From Polaribacter sp. (GTDB lineage: Bacteria > Bacteroidota > Bacteroidia > Flavobacteriales > Flavobacteriaceae): a DNA stretch of 47,095 nucleotides. Below are positions 4,238-47,095 of the stretch, one piece after another (the stretch's first letter is position 1; the number at the start of each line of letters is the position of its first letter). Location of the stretch: NCBI GenBank assembly GCA_018663625.1, contig JABJPX010000025.1, positions 1 through 47,095 of the forward strand, read 5' to 3'. The notes under the pieces are model-generated. The model was not told the DNA's origin. It searched no databases and saw only the letters and a program-made list of their open reading frames with translations. Both the position numbers and the translations under genes were made by a program.

Positions 4238-6619
4238 ATGAGTTTCTGGACAAAAGTTGCGAGTATTATCTTACGAAACCGATACCTAGTTTTAATAATT
4301 ATAGCAGGTATTACTACTTTTTTAGCTTCACAAATGAAGTATATGAAATTCTCATATACAGAAGCAAACCTACTGCCAGAAAACCATATTGCTAATTTAG
4401 AATACAATAAATTTTTAGAAATTTTTGGTGAAGAAGGCAACCTCGTTATTCTTGGCGTCAAAGACCCTACAATCTTTACACCCAGAAAATTTAATGCTTG
4501 GAATAATTTAGTAGACAAATTTGATGATCGAGAAGAAATTGATTTTACACTTTCAATTGCAGACGTTCAAGAACTAAAAAAAGATAAAAAGAACAGAAAG
4601 TTTGTCTTAGAACCTTTATACGAGAAGGATCCAACCACAGAAAAAGAAGTTTTAGCCATAAAAAAACAACTTTTTGAAAAACTTCCTTTTTACGACAATT
4701 TACTATACAACAAAGAAACAGGCACGTTGCAAACGGCCATCTATATTAAAAAGGAAATCATAAACACCAAAGCGCGTAGAGCGTTTATTTTCAACTACCT
4801 AAAACCCACCATAGAACAGTTTGAAAAAGAAACAGGACTAAATGTTCGCGTTTCTGGAATGCCCTATATAAGAACTTTAAATGCTAAAAACATAAAAGAT
4901 GAAATGCAACTTTTTGTTGGGGGTGCCTTGGCAATAACAGCGCTTATTTTCTTTTTCTTTTTCCGTTCTTTTAGAGCCACTTTTATCACCCTTTTTGTAG
5001 TGATTATTGGAGTTGTATGGGCCTTTGGGTTTATTGGATGGTTTGGGTATGAAATCACAGTTTTATCGGCATTAATTCCGCCGTTAATCATTGTCATTGG
5101 AGTTCCAAATGCTGTTTTCCTAATTAATAAATACCAGCAAGAAATTAAAAAACACGGTCAACAAGCAAAGGCTTTACAACGTGTAATTACTAAAATTGGT
5201 AATGCCACATTAATGACCAATATCACCACTGCATCTGGTTTTGCCACCTTTGTTTTTGTAGACAGTAAACTATTGCGTGAATTTGGTATTTTGGCTTCTG
5301 TAAACATCATCAGTATTTTTATTTTGGCCTTATTAATTGTACCTGTTTTGTATAGTTTCATGCCACTTCCAAAAAAGAAGCACTTGAGTCATCTTGAAAC
5401 AAAGTGGATTGAAAACGTAGTAAACTGGATGGAAAAAATGGTAAAACACCGTAGAATTACCGTTTATTTTACAACTGTCATCATCATAATCGTTAGTATT
5501 ATAGGGGTTTATAAAATTAGAGTTTCTGGAAGTCTCATAGAAGACATGCCCAAGAGTATGGAATTTTACAAAGACATTAAATTCTTTGAAAAAGAATTTG
5601 GAGGGATCATGCCATTAGAAATTTTAATTGACACCAAAAAAGACAAAGGGGTCATGAAATTATCTGTACTTAAAAAGATGGATAAAATTAATGAAACAAT
5701 CGAATCGTTTCCAGAACTATCGAAACCTATATCTGTTGTAAATCTAGTAAAATACTCTAAACAGGCATATTACAAAGGAAATCCAAAGTACTACCAGTTG
5801 CCAACTGGACAAGAACAAAGTTATATTTTTGCCTATACAAAAAATTCAAATAGTGATGCGAGCATGCTAAAAACCTTTGTGGATTCTACAGGGCGTTATG
5901 CAAGAATCACAACGTTTATGAAAGACATTGGTACCGACAAAATGGATGTCATTCAAAAACGACTCAAAGCGGTTATTGACAAAGAATTTCCTTCAGAAAA
6001 ATATTCCGTTTCCATTACCGGAAAAGCATTGGTGTTTATAAAAGGAACGAATTTCTTAATTACCAATTTAGTCATCTCACTCTCATTGGCAATATTGCTA
6101 ATTGCATTGTTTATGGCTTGGATGTTTCGATCTCCTCAAATGATTTTAATTTCATTAATTCCAAACATACTACCATTGCTAATCACTGCCGGATTAATGG
6201 GGTATTTTAACATTCCTATAAAACCATCAACAATCTTAGTTTTTAGTATTGCTTTTGGAATTTCTGTAGATGATACCATACACTTTTTAGCAAAATACAG
6301 GCAAGAGTTACTTGCCAGCAAATGGAAAGTTAAGCCCTCTGTATATGCAGCATTAAGAGAAACTGGAGTCAGCATGTTTTACACTTCTATTGTATTATTT
6401 TTTGGGTTTCTGGTATTTACGTTATCTAGTTTTGGAGGTACAATTGCCTTAGGAGGTTTGGTTTCTGTGACCCTTCTTTTAGCCATGGTATCCAATTTAA
6501 TTTTACTACCATCTCTCTTGTTAACTTTTGAACGGAAAATTGCAAACAAAAAAGTATTTAAAGAGCCTTCGATGCGAATTTTCCCACCATCCCAAAAACC
6601 CAAGAAAGAAGCCAAGTAA
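4238..6619 (+). CDS. MMPL/RND-superfamily exporter
   Basis: This is a 793-residue inner-membrane protein of the RND superfamily, in the MMPL/Patched-like branch (COG1033). It has two homologous halves. TM1 is near residues 12-30, a large periplasmic loop follows, and five TM segments lie between about 222 and 365. Then TM7 is near 405, a second loop follows, and a last TM block spans about 605-765. The second half has FGISVDDTIHFLAKYRQEL, the usual proton-relay-type motif with two Asp. The first half has IGVPNAVFLINKY at the equivalent place and lacks those acidic residues. Substrates in this branch are often lipids or hopanoids, but nothing here fixes the substrate. It is monocistronic between two terminator/promoter units. 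Confidence 0.85.
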   Translation: MSFWTKVASIILRNRYLVLIIIAGITTFLASQMKYMKFSYTEANLLPENHIANLEYNKFLEIFGEEGNLVILGVKDPTIFTPRKFNAWNNLVDKFDDREEIDFTLSIADVQELKKDKKNRKFVLEPLYEKDPTTEKEVLAIKKQLFEKLPFYDNLLYNKETGTLQTAIYIKKEIINTKARRAFIFNYLKPTIEQFEKETGLNVRVSGMPYIRTLNAKNIKDEMQLFVGGALAITALIFFFFFRSFRATFITLFVVIIGVVWAFGFIGWFGYEITVLSALIPPLIIVIGVPNAVFLINKYQQEIKKHGQQAKALQRVITKIGNATLMTNITTASGFATFVFVDSKLLREFGILASVNIISIFILALLIVPVLYSFMPLPKKKHLSHLETKWIENVVNWMEKMVKHRRITVYFTTVIIIIVSIIGVYKIRVSGSLIEDMPKSMEFYKDIKFFEKEFGGIMPLEILIDTKKDKGVMKLSVLKKMDKINETIESFPELSKPISVVNLVKYSKQAYYKGNPKYYQLPTGQEQSYIFAYTKNSNSDASMLKTFVDSTGRYARITTFMKDIGTDKMDVIQKRLKAVIDKEFPSEKYSVSITGKALVFIKGTNFLITNLVISLSLAILLIALFMAWMFRSPQMILISLIPNILPLLITAGLMGYFNIPIKPSTILVFSIAFGISVDDTIHFLAKYRQELLASKWKVKPSVYAALRETGVSMFYTSIVLFFGFLVFTLSSFGGTIALGGLVSVTLLLAMVSNLILLPSLLLTFERKIANKKVFKEPSMRIFPPSQKPKKEAK

Positions 6620-8182: not shown

Positions 8183-9640
8183 ATGTTAAAGCAAAGTTTA
8201 CATTATAAGCTCTTACAAAAATTATCTCCACAACAAATTCAGTTGATGAAGCTAATTCAATTGCCAACACAAGCCTTTGAAGAACGCATAAAACAAGAAA
8301 TAGAAGAGAACCCTGCTCTAGAAATCGGAAAGGAAGAACCAGAGTCTTTTGAGGATACTTTAGAAAATGAATATGATGACGTAGGTACCGAAAGTATCGA
8401 CACGGAAGACATCAATATTGATGAGTATTTAAGTGATGACGACATTCCAAGTTACAAAACGCAAGCAAATAATTACTCCGAAGACGACGAAGAAAAAAAT
8501 GTACCCTATGCAGCCGGCATTACTTTTCATCAATCTTTAAAGTCACAACTAGACACTTTTCGCTTCAATGAAGAAGAACGCTTAATTGCTGAATTCTTAG
8601 TGGGAAGTATTGATGACAGCGGTTATATAAGAAGGGATATTTTAGATCTGGTAGACGATTTAGCCTTTACTGCGAATGTTTTTACGACGGAAGAAAAGGT
8701 CATCACAATTTTAAAAAAAGTCATACATACTTTAGACCCAATTGGCGTAGGTGCAAGAGACTTAAAAGAGTGCTTAATCATCCAATTAAAGGGAAAAGAA
8801 AAAACAAAGATTCGGAAACTATCGATTGAAATTTTAGAGACTGCTTTTGATCACTTCGTAAAAAAACATTATCGCCAACTTCAAGAAAGATTTACCATTT
8901 CAGAAGAAGAATTGAAAGCAGTAACTGTTGAAATCTCAAAGCTAAATCCAAAACCGGGAAGCTCTTATGTAGGGAACAGTAAAATTGCAGAACAAATTGT
9001 GCCTGATTTTTCAATCAAAATTTTAGACGGTGAATTGGATTTATCATTGAACTCTAGAAATGCGCCCGAATTGCATATTTCAAGAGAATACAACAATATG
9101 CTAAAAGGATATCAAGAAGCTACTTCAAAAAGTAAGTCTCAAAAGGATGCTGTCTTTTTCATCAAACAAAAATTAGATGCTGCAAAATGGTTTATTGAAG
9201 CTATTAAACAACGGCAACAAACCTTATTGGTAACCATGAACACGATAATGCACTATCAACTTGATTATTTTTTATCTGGGGATGAACGCAAGTTGAAACC
9301 GATGATTTTAAAAGATATTGCAGATCAAATACAAATGGATATCTCTACCGTTTCTCGCGTTGCAAACAGCAAATATGTGTCAACGCCTTATGGGACAAAA
9401 TTGATTAAAGAATTCTTCTCTGAATCCATGAAAAACGATCAAGGCGAGGAGGTATCTACCAAAGAAATTAAGAAAATTCTTGAAACCGTTATTTCAAAAG
9501 AGGACAAACGGAAACCATTGACAGACGAAAAGTTAGCCCTTCTTCTAAAAGAGAAAGGATATCCTATTGCTCGAAGAACAATTGCAAAATATAGAGAACA
9601 ACTAGAGCTACCCGTTGCTCGTTTACGAAAAGAAATTTAG
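8183..9640 (+). CDS. rpoN: RNA polymerase sigma-54 factor
   Basis: Sigma-54 directs RNA polymerase to minus-24/minus-12 promoters that need AAA+ activators. The 485-residue protein has all regions: a Gln/Leu-rich region I (YKLLQKLSPQQIQLMKLIQL), a short acidic region II (about residues 50-105), the core-binding domain, an HTH with ISTVSRVANSKYV, and the RpoN box ARRTIAKYREQL close to the C-terminus. It follows asnS by 23 bp. A TATCTTTA box at 8171-8178 could give it a promoter of its own. The TAG stop shares its G with the GTG of the next gene. Confidence 0.97.
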   Translation: MLKQSLHYKLLQKLSPQQIQLMKLIQLPTQAFEERIKQEIEENPALEIGKEEPESFEDTLENEYDDVGTESIDTEDINIDEYLSDDDIPSYKTQANNYSEDDEEKNVPYAAGITFHQSLKSQLDTFRFNEEERLIAEFLVGSIDDSGYIRRDILDLVDDLAFTANVFTTEEKVITILKKVIHTLDPIGVGARDLKECLIIQLKGKEKTKIRKLSIEILETAFDHFVKKHYRQLQERFTISEEELKAVTVEISKLNPKPGSSYVGNSKIAEQIVPDFSIKILDGELDLSLNSRNAPELHISREYNNMLKGYQEATSKSKSQKDAVFFIKQKLDAAKWFIEAIKQRQQTLLVTMNTIMHYQLDYFLSGDERKLKPMILKDIADQIQMDISTVSRVANSKYVSTPYGTKLIKEFFSESMKNDQGEEVSTKEIKKILETVISKEDKRKPLTDEKLALLLKEKGYPIARRTIAKYREQLELPVARLRKEI

Positions 9641-12139: not shown

Positions 12140-12610
12140 TTATGATTTTATTAATCCTTTAACTAAGTCGTATACAAAAAATGCACTTGCTACTAAACCT
12201 AAAGCTACACTGAACCAAATACCGGTTCCGACCCATTGGTTGGTAGCTGTACCTGCGTCACCGCCTTCTAAAACAAGTCCTTGTGTATCAAGTACTGCTT
12301 CACTATCTGCGATTGAGTAAGAAATTACCAATACAACAGCTAAAAGTCCTAATCCTATTCCCATCTTCTTAAGATTTTGAGGATTCTTTATCACACTCCA
12401 TAACGAAAGCACTATTGCAATTGCAATAGCTGCGTATAATAAACCCGCCGAAAAGTAAACGATTGGGTTTACAACACTTTCTTGAATCGTTGCGTCACTC
12501 TCTAAAGCGTCCACATCTTCCATAAAAACTCTAATGAAAAGAATGGCACCTACAAGAGCTACAAAGGCTACGAATATGCTTAAATATTTTGCTAAATTAT
12601 TATCTTTCAT
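12140..12610 (-). CDS. Four-TM membrane protein in the ExbBD cluster, unknown function
   Basis: This 156-residue protein has four predicted TM helices: about residues 7-28, 49-70, 80-100 and 125-150. It has no motif I can assign. It sits between the ExbB-type and ExbD-type genes with gaps of 8 and 3 bp, so it probably acts with that proton-channel complex, perhaps as an extra membrane subunit. That role is inferred from position only. Confidence 0.75.
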   Translation of the reverse strand: MKDNNLAKYLSIFVAFVALVGAILFIRVFMEDVDALESDATIQESVVNPIVYFSAGLLYAAIAIAIVLSLWSVIKNPQNLKKMGIGLGLLAVVLVISYSIADSEAVLDTQGLVLEGGDAGTATNQWVGTGIWFSVALGLVASAFFVYDLVKGLIKS

Positions 12611-12618
12611 AATGATAA

Positions 12619-13341
12619 TTATTTTTTATATTTTACTAACAAATCGATTAAAGAGATAGAAGCGTCTTCCATATTATTAACGATACTATCTATTTTAGAT
12701 ACAATATAATTATAAAAAATTTGTAAAATAATCGCTACAACCAAACCAAATACAGTTGTTAAAAGAGCTACTTTAATACCCACAGCAACTACCCCTGGAG
12801 AGATATCATTTGCTACTGCAATCATATCAAAAGCTTTAATCATTCCAATTACAGTTCCCATGAAACCAAGCATTGGAGCTAAAGCGATAAATAAAGATAA
12901 CCAAGATACATTTTTCTCTAATTGTCCCATTTGAACACCACCATAAGAAACGACTGCTTTTTCTGCTGCATCAATTCCTTCGTCTACTCTATCTAAACCT
13001 TGATAAAAGATAGATGCTACAGGTCCTTTTGAATTTCTACAAACTTCTTTTGCAGCTTCTACTCCACCAGAGCTTAATGCTTCATCAACACTTGCCACTA
13101 ATTTCTTAGTATTTGTTGTTGCCATGTTTAAATAGATAATTCTTTCAATTGCAATGGCCAAACCTAAGATTAAGGCAACTAATACAATTCCCATAAATTG
13201 TGGGTCACCTTCAATAAAACGTTGTTTTAATTCTTGGTGGAAAGTTCTTTCTTCTGTGACTGCTCCTTGTGCAAAAGTTGATTGAATCGCTCCAAAAAAC
13301 ATAAATCCTGCGACAGTTAGGAAATTTACTACTTTTTTCAT
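12619..13341 (-). CDS. MotA/TolQ/ExbB proton-channel family protein
   Basis: This 240-residue inner-membrane protein is the proton-channel partner of the downstream ExbD proteins. It has an N-terminal signal-like segment ending FAQG. TM1 follows (FMGIVLVALILGLAIAIERI), then a cytoplasmic loop, TM2 (FIALAPMLGFMGTVIGMIKAF) and TM3 (VGIKVALLTTVFGLVVAIIL). The LGFMGTVIGMI and ALLTTVFG motifs are diagnostic of MotA/TolQ/ExbB. It is the first gene of a minus-strand operon. Confidence 0.92.
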   Translation of the reverse strand: MKKVVNFLTVAGFMFFGAIQSTFAQGAVTEERTFHQELKQRFIEGDPQFMGIVLVALILGLAIAIERIIYLNMATTNTKKLVASVDEALSSGGVEAAKEVCRNSKGPVASIFYQGLDRVDEGIDAAEKAVVSYGGVQMGQLEKNVSWLSLFIALAPMLGFMGTVIGMIKAFDMIAVANDISPGVVAVGIKVALLTTVFGLVVAIILQIFYNYIVSKIDSIVNNMEDASISLIDLLVKYKK

Positions 13342-13383: not shown

Positions 13384-13607
13384 TAAATTTTCACTCTAAA
13401 AAAACGAATTTTGAAATGATTTTAAGACTTTTTACTTAAAAAACAAATTTTTAACCAGTTCGTTATTTAGAAGGGGCAATTAACAAAAAAATGTTGAGCA
13501 TTTAAAAAAAATGAAAGGTTTTTATAAAGAATTAATGGAAAAAATCCATTTTAATCTTTATGTAACAAAAAACAACTTTCTAAAAATACATCCTTTTTGC
13601 TGAATTC

Positions 13608-44858: not shown

Positions 44859-45830
44859 GTGGACATACTACATTATCAAAAGGAGTTTCTAAACTATTTG
44901 GAATCTAAAAATTGGATTGATGAGCCTAAAAACTTGTACGAACCTATTGATTACATCTTAAAATTGGGCGGAAAAAGAATTCGACCTGTACTGACTTTAA
45001 TGACTGCCGATATTTTTTCTGCAGATTTTAAAAAAGCCTTACCCGCTTCATTGGCAGTAGAGGTTTTCCATAACTTTACTTTGGTACATGATGACATTAT
45101 GGATGCAGCACCTTTGCGAAGAGGGAAAGCAACGGTTCATGAAAAATGGGATACCAATACGGGAATTCTTTCTGGTGATGCTATGCTCATTTTGGCATAT
45201 CAATATTTTGAAAACTATGACCCAGTTGTCTTTCAGAAGCTCGCAAAATTATTTAGCAGAACGGCTTTAGAGGTTTGTGACGGACAACAGTTGGATGTTG
45301 ATTTTGAAACGAGAAATGATGTCACCATACCAGAATACATTAATATGATTCGTTTAAAAACTTCTGTTTTGGTAGCCGCAGCACTACAAATGGGGGCTAT
45401 TGTTGCAGAAACTTCTGAAGAGAATGCGCAATTAATTTATGATTTTGGATTGAATTTAGGGTTGGCTTTTCAATTGCAAGATGATTATTTGGATACTTTT
45501 GGGGACCCTGAAACGTTTGGAAAACAGATTGCAGGAGATATTATTGAAAATAAAAAAACATTCTTATATTTAAAATGTTTGGCCATTGCGAATAAAGAAG
45601 ATCAGCAAAAATTGGCTTTTTTCTACAAACAAAAACTGGAAGAAAACTCCATAAAAATAGCAGAAGTTACGCGCATTTTTGAATTGTATGACATTCCCAC
45701 ATTGGTCAAAGAGCAAATAAACAAGTACACTGAAAAGGCTTTTGAAACCTTGGAAGGAATGAAAATCGAAACGGAAAGCAAACAAAATTTAAAGAATTTT
45801 GGGCTTTGGTTGATGAATCGATCAGTGTAA
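44859..45830 (+). CDS. Polyprenyl diphosphate synthase (isoprenyl chain elongation)
   Basis: This enzyme condenses isopentenyl diphosphate onto allylic diphosphates. The start is a GTG at 44859, preceded by AAAG. The 323-residue product has LGGKRIRPVL (residues 36-45), the first Asp-rich motif DDIMD (78-82) followed by PLRRGKATVHEKW, and the second motif FQLQDDYLD near residue 210. The residues before the first DDxxD are not bulky in a way that lets me fix product length: farnesyl, geranylgeranyl or a longer quinone tail are all possible. A link to the carotenoid or menaquinone pathway is plausible. Confidence 0.9.
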   Translation: MDILHYQKEFLNYLESKNWIDEPKNLYEPIDYILKLGGKRIRPVLTLMTADIFSADFKKALPASLAVEVFHNFTLVHDDIMDAAPLRRGKATVHEKWDTNTGILSGDAMLILAYQYFENYDPVVFQKLAKLFSRTALEVCDGQQLDVDFETRNDVTIPEYINMIRLKTSVLVAAALQMGAIVAETSEENAQLIYDFGLNLGLAFQLQDDYLDTFGDPETFGKQIAGDIIENKKTFLYLKCLAIANKEDQQKLAFFYKQKLEENSIKIAEVTRIFELYDIPTLVKEQINKYTEKAFETLEGMKIETESKQNLKNFGLWLMNRSV

Positions 45831-45893: not shown

Positions 45894-45967
45894 GGTCCCA
45901 TAGCTCAGTTGGTTAGAGCATCTGACTCATAATCAGAGGGTCCTTGGTTCGAGCCCAAGTGGGACCA
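45894..45967 (+). tRNA. tRNA with CAT anticodon (elongator Met or lysidine-type Ile2)
   Basis: This is a complete cloverleaf. The acceptor arms are GGTCCCA (45894-45900) and TGGGACC (45960-45966) with discriminator A. The D arm is GCTC/GAGC. The anticodon stem is TCTGA/TCAGA with loop CTCATAA (anticodon 45928-45930), the variable loop GGGTC, and the T arm CTTGG-TTCGAGC-CCAAG. The 3' CCA is not encoded. It is not initiator-like, because the first acceptor pair is G-C. A CAT anticodon can be read as Met, or as Ile after TilS converts C34 to lysidine; the sequence alone does not settle this. Confidence 0.95.
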
Positions 45968-45979
45968 CATTATAAAACC

Positions 45980-46008
45980 AAGCCTTACAGCAATGTAGGG
46001 CTTTTTTT
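45980..46008 (+). terminator. tRNA terminator with GCAA tetraloop
   Basis: A 10-bp stem (45980-45989 with 45994-46003, one G-T pair) is closed by a GCAA loop and followed by Ts through 46008. It starts 12 bp after the tRNA. Confidence 0.9.
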
Positions 46009-46025
46009 GTAGTAGTTATACATCT

Positions 46026-46069
46026 CAAATATACTAAAAAAGTGGTTAACTGCCACTTTACTGCCACTT
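46026..46069. promoter_or_regulatory. Direct and inverted repeats with a minus-strand minus-7 box next to the tRNA
   Basis: ACTGCCACTT occurs twice with an 11-bp period (46049-46058, 46060-46069). An inverted partner, AAAGTGG at 46039-46045, pairs with CCACTTT at 46053-46059. On the minus strand a TATATTTG box (46026-46033) leads to an ATG at 46023 after two bases, but that frame stops after 12 codons. It looks like a leftover operator and promoter of a gene no longer present. A former integrase is one possibility. Confidence 0.4.
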
Positions 46070-46094
46070 ATATGACAATTATGATAAGAATAAA

Positions 46095-46110
46095 ACTAAA
46101 CCATAGGCAT
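46095..46110 (+). repeat. Direct repeat copy 1 (ACTAAACCATAGGCAT)
   Basis: First of three copies of a 14-16 bp sequence in the last kilobase. It is followed by TTCTTCTC. It lies 81 bp before the MORN-repeat lipoprotein gene. Confidence 0.75.
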
Positions 46111-46171
46111 TTCTTCTCCCTCGTTCAATTCTGTTATTTCTAAACCTCTTAAACAGGTTAGATACTTTTCT

Positions 46172-46179
46172 TATATTTG
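46172..46179 (+). promoter_or_regulatory. Minus-7 box TATATTTG of the MORN-repeat gene
   Basis: An exact TAnnTTTG match 12 bp before the ATG at 46192. It shows that this small gene has its own promoter lying downstream of repeat copy 1. Confidence 0.6.
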
Positions 46180-46191
46180 AAAAAAGATATT

Positions 46192-46659
46192 ATGAAAACA
46201 TTAGTAAGAAATATCATAATTTTAGTTTGTTTAATCTTATTTTTAAGTTGTTCTGTTACAAAGATTAAAATCTCTGAAAATCCAAAACTTGGCTATATTC
46301 AAACTAATTATATTAGTGGTCAGCTAAAAAACAAAACGTATATGAAAATTGATACTTTAGGTAACTGGATTTATAATGGTATTTCAAAATCTTATTATAA
46401 AAATGGTCAGCTAAAGTCTGAAGGGAACTTCAAAAATAATAAACAAGATGGTCAATGGAGGTCGTATTATGATAACGGTCGGTTAAAGTCTAAGGTATAC
46501 TACAAAGACGGAAAAGAAGATGGTTTATCTAATTTTTATTACAAAAACGGGCAGTTAAAGCAAAAAACAAACAATAATAATGATAAGCCAGGTGGAATTC
46601 CAGCTGGATTTTGGGAAAATGGAAGTTCTAGAAGACAGATTAAACCAATAAAAAACTAA
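46192..46659 (+). CDS. MORN-repeat (YwqK-like) lipoprotein
   Basis: The ATG at 46192 gives 155 residues; a TTG five codons upstream lies within the minus-7 box and is rejected. It has a lipoprotein signal (CLILFLSC, Cys21), then MORN-2 type repeats of about 22 residues with the pattern YY-K/D-NG-Q/R-LK-S-x-x-x-Y/F-K-x-x-K-x-D-G. Examples are SYYKNGQLKSEG, SYYDNGRLKSKV and FYYKNGQLKQKT. Similar proteins are called YwqK-family antitoxins, but here the signal peptide points to an envelope protein and no toxin is visible. It is flanked by repeat copies 1 and 2. Confidence 0.82.
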   Translation: MKTLVRNIIILVCLILFLSCSVTKIKISENPKLGYIQTNYISGQLKNKTYMKIDTLGNWIYNGISKSYYKNGQLKSEGNFKNNKQDGQWRSYYDNGRLKSKVYYKDGKEDGLSNFYYKNGQLKQKTNNNNDKPGGIPAGFWENGSSRRQIKPIKN

Positions 46660-46697
46660 TAGTTTATAGTTAAAACAAAAGAATTTTATAGACAACC

Positions 46698-46713
46698 ACT
46701 AAACCATAGGCAT
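46698..46713 (+). repeat. Direct repeat copy 2 (ACTAAACCATAGGCAT)
   Basis: Identical over 16 bp to copy 1 and continuing ATATCTTTTTC. It lies 39 bp after the MORN gene stop and 35 bp before the next ATG. Confidence 0.75.
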
Positions 46714-46748
46714 ATCTTTTTCTTTTAAAATTTTTGTAAATTGTAGGT

Positions 46749-47078
46749 ATGAAAAAGCTGTTATTTCTTTTATTATTTATTCCACTTGTTTCTTTAGGAC
46801 AGAAAATATATAGCGTTAATTATTCCTCAAGGTCAGACATAAAAGTTTATGTTGTTGACTACGAATCTCAAAGTGATTTAAAGGTCTACAAAGTTAATTC
46901 TGTATCAAAAGCAAGAGGAAACGAAGGATTATGGTATTTTGTTGACAATAAATCTCAAGCTGATAAAAAAATTTTTTTTGTAGATTATGTATCTCGTTCT
47001 GACTTAAAGGTATTTTTTGTTAAATATAAGTCTCGAGCAGGCTGGAGAAATAACTCTAAAAAGCATCTTATTTATTAA
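46749..47078 (+). CDS. Exported DUF6150-like repeat protein
   Basis: This 109-residue protein has a cleavable signal peptide (LLLFIPLVSLGQ). The mature part consists of about five short repeats of the form I/V-Y/F-x-V-x-Y-x-S-R/Q-S/A-D-x-K-V: YSVNYSSRSDIKV, YVVDYESQSDLKV, YKVNSVSKA (degenerate), FVDNKSQADKKI and FVDYVSRSDLKV. I associate this pattern with DUF6150, function unknown, probably a small all-beta repeat fold. Its TAA stop lies inside repeat copy 3. Confidence 0.75.
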   Translation: MKKLLFLLLFIPLVSLGQKIYSVNYSSRSDIKVYVVDYESQSDLKVYKVNSVSKARGNEGLWYFVDNKSQADKKIFFVDYVSRSDLKVFFVKYKSRAGWRNNSKKHLIY

Positions 47079-47089
47079 ACCATAGGCAT
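47076..47089 (+). repeat. Direct repeat copy 3 (TAAACCATAGGCAT)
   Basis: A 14-bp exact match to copies 1 and 2, continuing ATATCCTC to the window end. It contains the stop codon of the preceding gene. The array may continue past the window. Confidence 0.75.
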
Positions 47090-47095
47090 ATCCTC

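Follow-up and report, generated by a model that had tools for sequence, protein, structure and literature searches.

How do small genes for exported proteins, each followed by the same short repeat, come to lie directly behind a transfer RNA (tRNA) gene? This question is raised by the last kilobase of a 47,095-nucleotide stretch from a Polaribacter sp. of the Flavobacteriaceae (contig JABJPX010000025.1, here C73, of assembly GCA_018663625.1), which was analysed as a whole and is referred to as the window. As the original prediction had proposed from the letters alone, three copies of the repeat lie on the same strand: ACTAAACCATAGGCAT was found exactly at 46095 and 46698, and the third copy, ATTAAACCATAGGCAT at 47074, carries one mismatch. 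Each interval between copies holds one small gene, a MORN_2 lipoprotein-like gene followed by a DUF6150 gene, and both products have lipoprotein- or secretion-like N-termini. The tRNA-Met(CAT) gene on the same strand ends 126 base pairs (bp) before the first copy, and the third copy coincides with the end of the window, which is the entire contig. Upon comparison with related genomes, we found that the repeats reproduce the 3' end of an integrase gene. They are predicted to serve as attachment sites, and the window likely shows the start of a gene-cassette array anchored at tRNA-Met.

The draft genome (2.13 Mb in 80 contigs) contained the exact 13-mer AAACCATAGGCAT at these three places and nowhere else. 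With up to three mismatches over 17 bases, nine places were found in the whole draft genome and two with the reversed control; among the six further places, the one examined, at position 229 of contig C13, was a decayed site. The window itself held three copies at this tolerance, compared with a mean of 0.54 in shuffled sequences, and 3 of 100 shuffles reached three copies, so copy number alone is weak evidence. The near-exactness of the copies, their restriction to a single strand and their clustering are beyond chance. Similarity past the core, which had been described in general terms, proved to depend on the copy: copy 1 runs on into a remnant of an integrase C-terminus, and copy 2 into a leader that ends at a start codon.

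Identity of the repeat and the arrays of related genomes

The identity of the site was evident from a copy in a related locus (L034, position 8910), where the reverse strand is an open frame that ends in …RHSGAIEIFKRTGSLTKLQKAMGHSSINVSLTYLRGLEIADLKEEDMPMV and stop and encodes a tyrosine recombinase (PF00589). Read on the opposite strand, the repeat thus spells the final codons and the stop codon of an integrase gene (…EEDMPMV-stop), and the suggestion that it might be a variant of the integron core was corrected: it is the 3' end of the integrase gene itself. Among 397 genomes of the family, clustered copies were found in a few small genomes (17, 11 and 11 copies in G136, G324 and G361), and the reversed control gave none. 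A class-level draw of 395 genomes, in which a 17-base match with at most one mismatch was required, yielded 29 places in 21 genomes compared with 10 places in 9 genomes for the control; the site is thus rare outside the family. The exact 23-base form of the site was absent from the viral contigs searched. The loci that we fetched contained 219 sites and 4 matches to the reversed core, a biased rate, as these loci were chosen for carrying a site or an integrase.

From the fetched loci, 227 unique sites were compared, 53 of which were attached to an integrase. At the non-wobble positions 0 to 27 (TAAACCATAGGCATATCTTCTTCTTTTA), the other 174 sites matched the integrase 3' end at 0.86-1.00; beyond +27 the match was about 0.5-0.8 to about +72, lower at wobble positions, and then fell below that. 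The integrase-similar stretch at 199 non-integrase sites had two length modes, one at 30-49 bases (62 sites) and one at 60-79 bases (56 sites). It was below 30 bases at 12 of the 199, although shorter stretches could hardly show, given that a 20-base core was used to find the sites.

Judged by its wobble bases, the stretch of the integrase gene that forms the core is frozen at the DNA level, as expected for an attachment site. The wobble base of Pro345 inside the core (CCT in 26 of 27 integrases) was the most fixed among 28 conserved four-fold columns, and that of Asp343 (GAT in 27 of 27) was joint first among 58 two-fold columns. The wobble bases of the neighbouring Glu341, Glu342 and Lys340 vary (0.50, 0.67 and 0.74, respectively; median 0.72). 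Additionally, the integrase tail reads MPKV-stop in one genus of another family, and the same change, TAAACCTTAGG, is present in two further copies (G539 and G503); this apparent co-variation of tail and copies is suggestive only.

In related Bacteroidota, mostly Flavobacteriaceae going by their names, the sites form arrays with mostly single small genes between them, and some arrays terminate in a site that is formed by the tail of an intact integrase gene. The 97 same-strand intervals from site to site had a median length of 918 bp, and 60 of them contained one large open reading frame (ORF). Of 172 ORFs in cassettes, 140 have the same orientation as the site, and the TAA of the core doubles as the stop codon of the preceding gene in 29 of 86 intervals. 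By a crude test, 101 of the 140 same-strand cassette ORFs had a hydrophobic N-terminus, compared with 22 of 48 chromosomal ORFs of the window, or 17 of the 32 under 300 amino acids (aa). The cargo was diverse, as 87 Pfam families were found when 145 of 166 listed ORFs were scanned, the commonest in five proteins. Directly behind the site, the cassettes also seem to have a promoter motif, since the -7-like motif TANNTTTG was present in 24 of 93 cassette leaders compared with six to nine for three control patterns.

The arrays lie mainly on the 3' side of the integrase. We considered 41 integrase frames with 200 or more open codons (320 or more in 39 of them) and counted sites within 8 kb; the 3' side held 31 sites on the same strand and 4 on the opposite strand, whereas the 5' side held 6. 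At least one further 3'-side site was present at 17 of the 41 frames.

Some individual loci stood out. Between two sites in L034 (5361-7183), umuDC-like genes, named by eye, lie on the opposite strand and form an unusually large cargo of the DNA-repair type. A family of membrane proteins starting like MKKKYIIRYSLEFLVIVLGISLSFYIE has eight members in two loci (L147 and L071), several per array, which suggests that cassettes were amplified within arrays and then diverged. A contig titled Candidatus Rokubacteria (L108, OMJU01000117.1) carries an integrase of this clade and a site and is possibly mis-binned. Finally, a UBA2000 contig (L124) is identical to OX044355.1 (L125) over 13,683 bases including an array, representing either one organism with two records or a very recent transfer.

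Exchange at the core, mosaic integrases and tRNA-bound islands

Pairs of sites sharing a left neighbour revealed that cassettes are reassorted at the core. Such pairs were taken from different loci and were at least 80% identical over the left 60 bases; in 53 of 62 pairs the right flanks were at background identity. Seven of the nine exceptions had integrase sequence on the right in both partners, and two came from the stretch common to L124 and L125. In particular, one cassette end that is 94% identical over 300 bases in L075 and L076 abuts the integrase site in L075, while L076 has one extra 1.82-kb unit with a 580-aa gene between this cassette end and the integrase. The cassettes of the window have counterparts elsewhere as well: L042 contains a 68% identical homologue of the DUF6150 cassette that stops at the same base, L063 contains a piece of it, and in L103 the MORN cassette end together with its site is matched at 95% identity over 58 bases.

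The point of exchange was located using 43 pairs with the same left and different right sides, which were weighted by 20 cassette families after removal of L124 and about 18 loci repeating the same places. Positions -1, 0 and +4 followed the left cassette, with an identity of 0.94 (bootstrap 0.88-1.00; random 0.66), and the wobble positions 17, 20, 23, 26 and 28 jointly showed an identity of 0.58 (0.49-0.68; random 0.51). As identity is kept to +4 and largely lost by +17, most exchange took place between +4 and +17, inside the core, which, on the evidence of these alignments, is the mark of site-specific recombination.

The integrase has the features of a tyrosine recombinase. PF00589 was found in 29 of 29 integrases; R207, K235, R298, H321 and Y330 are invariant and Tyr295 lies at the box II position, an assignment for which we take the catalytic motif to be R, K, R, H and Y with box II usually His. 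The integron integrase profile TIGR02249 (NCBIfam) gave 18.5 and 28.3 bits with two integrases, against a cut-off of 265. The predicted structure (mean predicted local distance difference test, pLDDT, 86.7; predicted template modelling score, pTM, 0.58) comprises three domains (N-terminal beta-sheet, helical and catalytic), and its last 11 residues are of low confidence. We read the N-terminal domain of this model as a putative arm-binding domain and the helical one as a putative core-binding domain. The top Foldseek match by E-value was the integron integrase 2a3v, and Foldseek and a PDB sequence search together placed the enzyme as a tyrosine recombinase and nothing narrower.

The integrases are mosaics of two halves. 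Between tRNA classes (151 pairs), the median identity was 73% for the catalytic halves and 25% for the N-terminal halves; within a tRNA class (39 pairs), the corresponding values were 78% and 45%. In the extreme pair, L067 (initiator-like Met) and L081 (Ala), the N-terminal halves were 21% and the catalytic halves 97% identical. At the DNA level (60-column windows), L067:10001-11044 and L081:5887-6909 share a 93-100% identical block from about 500 bases before the stop codon to the stop codon, and L065:10001-11044 and L079:6866-7885, a pair likewise unrelated in the N-terminal half and different in tRNA target, share 3' halves of about 500 bases with 81-98% identity. The putative site-reading part of the integrase moves as a block bounded by the site, and the putative tRNA-choosing half differs. 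The fit between N-terminal half and tRNA class is loose; identity within a class can be as low as 19%, and L074, which has the hybrid duplicate described below, is a partner in all of the lowest pairs. Homologues of one integrase numbered 3140 at E <= 1e-20, counted regardless of their tails. Around the tail-bearing integrases of L090, L198, L202, L203, L207 and L208, some of which have little flank, no further site copies were found.

The islands follow a common order along the tRNA: tRNA, terminator, direct repeats with a pitch of 11-13 bp, cassettes, last site, antisense integrase, direct repeats and tRNA duplicate. Alignments of L066, L067 and L089 showed the 3' part of the tRNA at both island ends, with the integrase beside one of them, which marks the islands of these relatives as tRNA-integrated. 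In L066 almost the whole tRNA is duplicated, whereas identity begins in the D arm in L067 and L089. In 22 of 34 loci, a tRNA end was no more than 400 bp away from the start of the integrase, with a score cut set by eye. Five kinds of tRNA were found beside integrases (initiator-like Met, Met, Ala, His and Asn), and tRNA-Phe was found in L109. By eye, direct repeats comparable to the ACTGCCACTT repeats of the window occur in related islands after the tRNA or between the integrase and the tRNA duplicate. L201 represents a complete island of 7.15 kb, with tRNA-Met at 6309-6383, a shortened duplicate at 13392-13461, sites at 8616, 11044 and 12276, and a minus-strand integrase at 12275-13336; inspection of the island's ORFs by eye revealed no gene for transfer or replication. 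L074 (9600-10000 and 14004-14078) has a hybrid tRNA remnant next to its integrase, which resembles Met up to CTCATAA and initiator-like Met after it; this suggests either exchange in the anticodon loop during the tRNA reaction or a cross between two islands.

The island of the window

Table 1. Features of the window from the chromosomal flank to the end of the contig.
Feature	Position	Strand	Basis
Polyprenyl synthetase gene, chromosomal flank upstream of the tRNA	44859..45830	+	PF00348, E 1e-75
tRNA-Met(CAT), predicted island anchor (attB)	45894..45968	+	ARAGORN; related arrays likewise lie 3' of a same-strand tRNA at many loci
Terminator-like hairpin after the tRNA	45980..46003	+	Pattern scan, consensus match only
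Pair of ACTGCCACTT direct repeats at a pitch of 11 bp; predicted arm-type sites for integrase binding at the tRNA-side end	46049..46069	+	Sequence
Truncated cassette gene end, fused to the arm repeats	46070..46094	+	By eye, against ctatatgacaattatgaaaagaataac and variants in L029, L066, L117 and L119
Site 1, core TAAACCATAGGCATTTC at 46097-46113	46095..46125	+	Sequence
Integrase C-terminus remnant, 24 codons and stop, EKYLTCLRGLEITELNEGEEMPMV-stop (tail …LTCLRGLEITELNEGEEMPMV-stop)	46096..46170	-	Translation; matches integrase C-termini
TATATTTG, promoter-like motif ahead of the MORN gene	46172..46179	+	Sequence
Cassette 1: MORN_2 lipoprotein-like gene, 155 aa	46192..46659	+	PF07661, E 8e-15
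Site 2, core TAAACCATAGGCATATC at 46700-46716, then leader ending at the DUF6150 start codon	46698..46728	+	Sequence
Cassette 2: DUF6150 secreted-protein gene, 109 aa	46749..47078	+	PF19647, E 7e-24
Site 3, core TAAACCATAGGCATATC at 47076-47092, cut by the contig end	47074..47095	+	Sequence

The features of the window (Table 1) correspond to the tRNA side of such an island, the only side visible here. Site 1 was about 71-88% identical to many other sites and leaders over about 50-120 bases among the matches listed, and the type of leader behind site 2 was found by word match at 20 of 199 non-integrase sites. The motif TATATTTG is presumably a Bacteroidota-type -7 motif. The stop codon TAA of cassette 2 is formed by the first three bases of the core of site 3.

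Searching 50 genomes of the same genus with the flanking gene plus the tRNA gave a match in 49, some of them partial. Among the 20 orthologous stretches fetched, that of G426 (L147) contained 15 forward sites at up to five mismatches in about 11 kb, and that of G433 (L155) contained six, the last of which is formed by the tail of an integrase gene with an interrupted frame. The stretch of G423 (L148) had no site at up to five mismatches. Six others shared, by eye, one kind of small gene close after the tRNA, and the remaining stretches were covered by a scan sensitive to near-exact sites only, which also missed copy 1 of the window.

The predicted right end of the array was found at the start of contig C13 (L171:1-330). 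There, the end of a cassette gene (…LFRLNSECN-stop) precedes the decayed site (position 229) and an integrase remnant, and a gene for glutathione peroxidase comes next. The protein encoded by this gene is 92% identical to its counterpart in the right flank of the G426 array. Given the array sequence on C13 and this shared flank, the array of the window most likely spans the gap between C73 and C13; the two contigs are most likely neighbours, with the assembly broken inside the array. G426 has an open integrase elsewhere (L066), and a tRNA-Met duplicate was not found at the right end of its Met island. None of the loci fetched was an empty tRNA-Met locus with the right flank of the window's island.

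As evident from these relatives, which showed the tRNA, the arrays and the integrase at the array end, the proposal that repeat-mediated insertion had built up a cassette array or an island next to a tRNA was supported. The recombinase that had been expected at the end of the array was likewise present in relatives, while the genome of the window yielded a remnant only.

Proposed mechanism, alternative explanations and known systems

We propose that the integrase would integrate the island at the tRNA and that the same enzyme would recombine two double-stranded sites of 17-30 bp, leading to insertion or excision of a cassette. As exchange falls to the right of +4, the left cassette donates the last codon and the stop codon of the integrase; an incoming cassette would restore both, and the integrase therefore stays whole. 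Catalysis of cassette exchange by the integrase, circular cassette intermediates and a promoter function of the leaders are inferred. New cassettes may be born by the loss of integrase bodies, and arrays that lack an integrase may be served in trans.

Several findings weigh against this reading. Recombination is inferred here by comparing sequences alone. An intact integrase was not found in the draft genome of the window at the thresholds used, only the remnant on C13, and an intact gene could lie in the assembly gap, so the array of the window may be dead or inactive, or may be served in trans. There was no further 3'-side site within 8 kb at 24 of the 41 integrase frames; 14 of the 24 had at least 4 kb searched, and in 10 the flank was shorter than 3 kb. 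Only one arm of the site is conserved, with little conservation left of -3, and positions 17 and 26 taken alone were 0.67 and 0.68 identical to the left partner (random 0.51 and 0.46), which may reflect a minority of exchanges beyond +17 or relatedness between the paired sites. At least 100 bases of integrase similarity were present at 45 of 199 non-integrase sites, and at least 300 bases at 13, which suggests that some units were born by integrase decay. G827, another genome of the genus with the MPKV-stop tail, carried the common core at one place, and its integrase tail was off the contig. Repeats of their own tails were absent at the distant integrases inspected (7 viral and 3 class-level relatives). 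Finally, the integrases of viral contigs L175, L176, L177 and L179, which are distant (26-27% identity), end in LKIEDMPTL, which resembles EEDMPMV; part of the tail conservation may therefore serve the protein.

Some of these findings are what one would expect if tRNA-integrating elements had merely been stacked, had lost their integrase bodies and had left cargo between 3'-end scars with no cassette exchange. The integrase remnants of many lengths, the open integrases with cargo and no further site, and copy 1 of the window, a remnant of 24 codons, all fit such accretion and decay. On the other hand, the remnant lengths are bimodal and do not show smooth decay, with 12 of 199 below 30 bases, and the recurrence of the same cassette end with a new right neighbour, together with the loss of identity inside the core in 20 families, needs recombination at the site. 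We regard this explanation as unlikely. Recombination could also be homologous, carried out by RecA or through transformation between integrase 3'-end repeats of 30-75 bp, the integrase being uninvolved there. Repeats of this length could serve as short homology, the catalytic halves that are 93-100% identical over about 500 bases beside unrelated N-termini suggest exchange of whole blocks, and identity is slightly raised at positions 17 and 26. In this case, however, breakpoints should scatter along the repeat, whereas linkage is mostly lost from +4 to +17; unrelated genes ending exactly at the core and the fixed wobble bases of the core would also be left unexplained. Such a route is considered improbable as the main one.

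The original prediction had itself offered a shared regulatory site as an alternative, in which the repeat is an operator or promoter ahead of each small secreted-protein gene. The enrichment of TANNTTTG in the leaders and the prevailing ORF direction agree with it, and a promoter role may coexist with recombination. The conserved part nevertheless encodes, on the other strand, the C-terminal end of an integrase and often provides the preceding gene with its stop codon, and a regulatory site fails to explain exchange inside the core, which leaves this alternative with very little probability. Least probable, to the point of being hardly tenable, is a true integron, or a cluster of attC sites lacking integron integrases (CALIN), whose attC sites would be unusual. 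In its favour are cassettes of one gene each, most of them oriented alike, and the Foldseek match to 2a3v; the low TIGR02249 scores, the extra N-terminal beta domain of the model and an array at the 3' end of the integrase are against it. The absence of an attC fold, remarked upon earlier, was upheld, as four sites showed no stable hairpin on either strand (z -0.83 to +1.09) and the left flank is hardly conserved.

Integrons consist of the integrase IntI, an attI site and attC hairpins, and their cassettes are mostly of one gene and one orientation, many without known function; the attI platform adjoins the start of intI. The cassette arrays described here resemble integrons in that a tyrosine recombinase, cassettes mostly of one gene and one orientation, many of them likewise without known function, and exchange at a short shared site are combined. 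They differ from integrons in that the integrase does not reach the score set for IntI and is modelled with an additional N-terminal domain, none of the tested sites is a hairpin, the site is the coding 3' end of the integrase gene and the array lies on its 3' side (35 sites compared with 6 on the 5' side at the 41 frames). The islands here also lie in tRNA genes, and the cassettes appear to carry promoters. In cis-mobilizable elements and in the accretion of integrative and conjugative elements, att-flanked units that lack a recombinase are stacked in tandem and mobilised in trans; the units here are different in being mostly about 0.5-1.8 kb and in sharing a site within the integrase gene, not within a host gene. 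Tycheposons are tRNA-anchored cargo islands with a tyrosine recombinase in marine plankton, and the islands here resemble them in this general form. The repeat made of the integrase tail and the array of single genes are in neither of the descriptions available in excerpt from the papers that name tycheposons (PMC10872708, PMC12416821).

Additive flexible genomic islands have been described, in the excerpts available, from Alteromonas (PMC4119200) and Methylophilaceae (PMC10872708), and they share with the present islands the tRNA anchor, strain-variable cassettes and an occurrence in marine or freshwater bacteria. Those of Methylophilaceae also contain a short repeat, which the excerpt gives as the last 20 bases of tRNA-Lys (PMC10872708), whereas the repeat here is the integrase 3' end and the units are mostly single small genes. 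In the suicidal integrases of archaea (SSV, pTN3 and pT26-2), which the accessible part of one paper calls exclusive to archaea, the att site lies inside the integrase gene, which is split on integration; the N-terminal half, the C-terminal half and the att site have different histories, and chimeric integrases were proposed (PMC8371274). A site inside the integrase gene, insofar as it is an attachment site, and halves with different histories are common to both. Unlike in those archaeal systems, the site here comprises the last codons and the stop, the gene is not split, and of the 41 frames that end at a site, selected for an open length of at least 200 codons, 39 stay open over 320 codons or more. 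The modelled three-domain form and the direct repeats of arm type are also found in the integrases of CTnDOT, Tn1549 and lambda, whose descriptions, in the portions available to us, do not include cassette arrays at the end of their own genes; the same source describes an IntI-specific insertion in the catalytic domain of IntI (PMC8138268).

In the open-licence literature searched, no description of cassette arrays at an integrase tail was found; a prior description elsewhere is possible. The balance of the evidence tips modestly towards a broader view, namely that this is a second cassette system independent of integrons, in which the 3' end of an arm-binding integrase's own gene would act as the universal site. 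Swapped catalytic halves would make this site one currency across islands at no fewer than five tRNAs, and the system would spread small proteins, most of them secreted or membrane-bound, among marine Flavobacteriaceae and related bacteria. We presume the array-bearing organisms to be marine from their names.

If this is true, integrons are not the sole bacterial route to stock and shuffle single-gene cassettes, and the system would give bacteria an example of an attachment site made of coding sequence of its own integrase, as well as a natural experiment in recombinase domain swapping. The fixed site would ease the harvest of cassettes from metagenomes, and the 3140 homologues hint at a large pool. 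Marine Flavobacteriaceae are major degraders of algal polymers. They would own a cassette pool of their own, which is expected to escape programs that find integrons because it has neither IntI nor attC.

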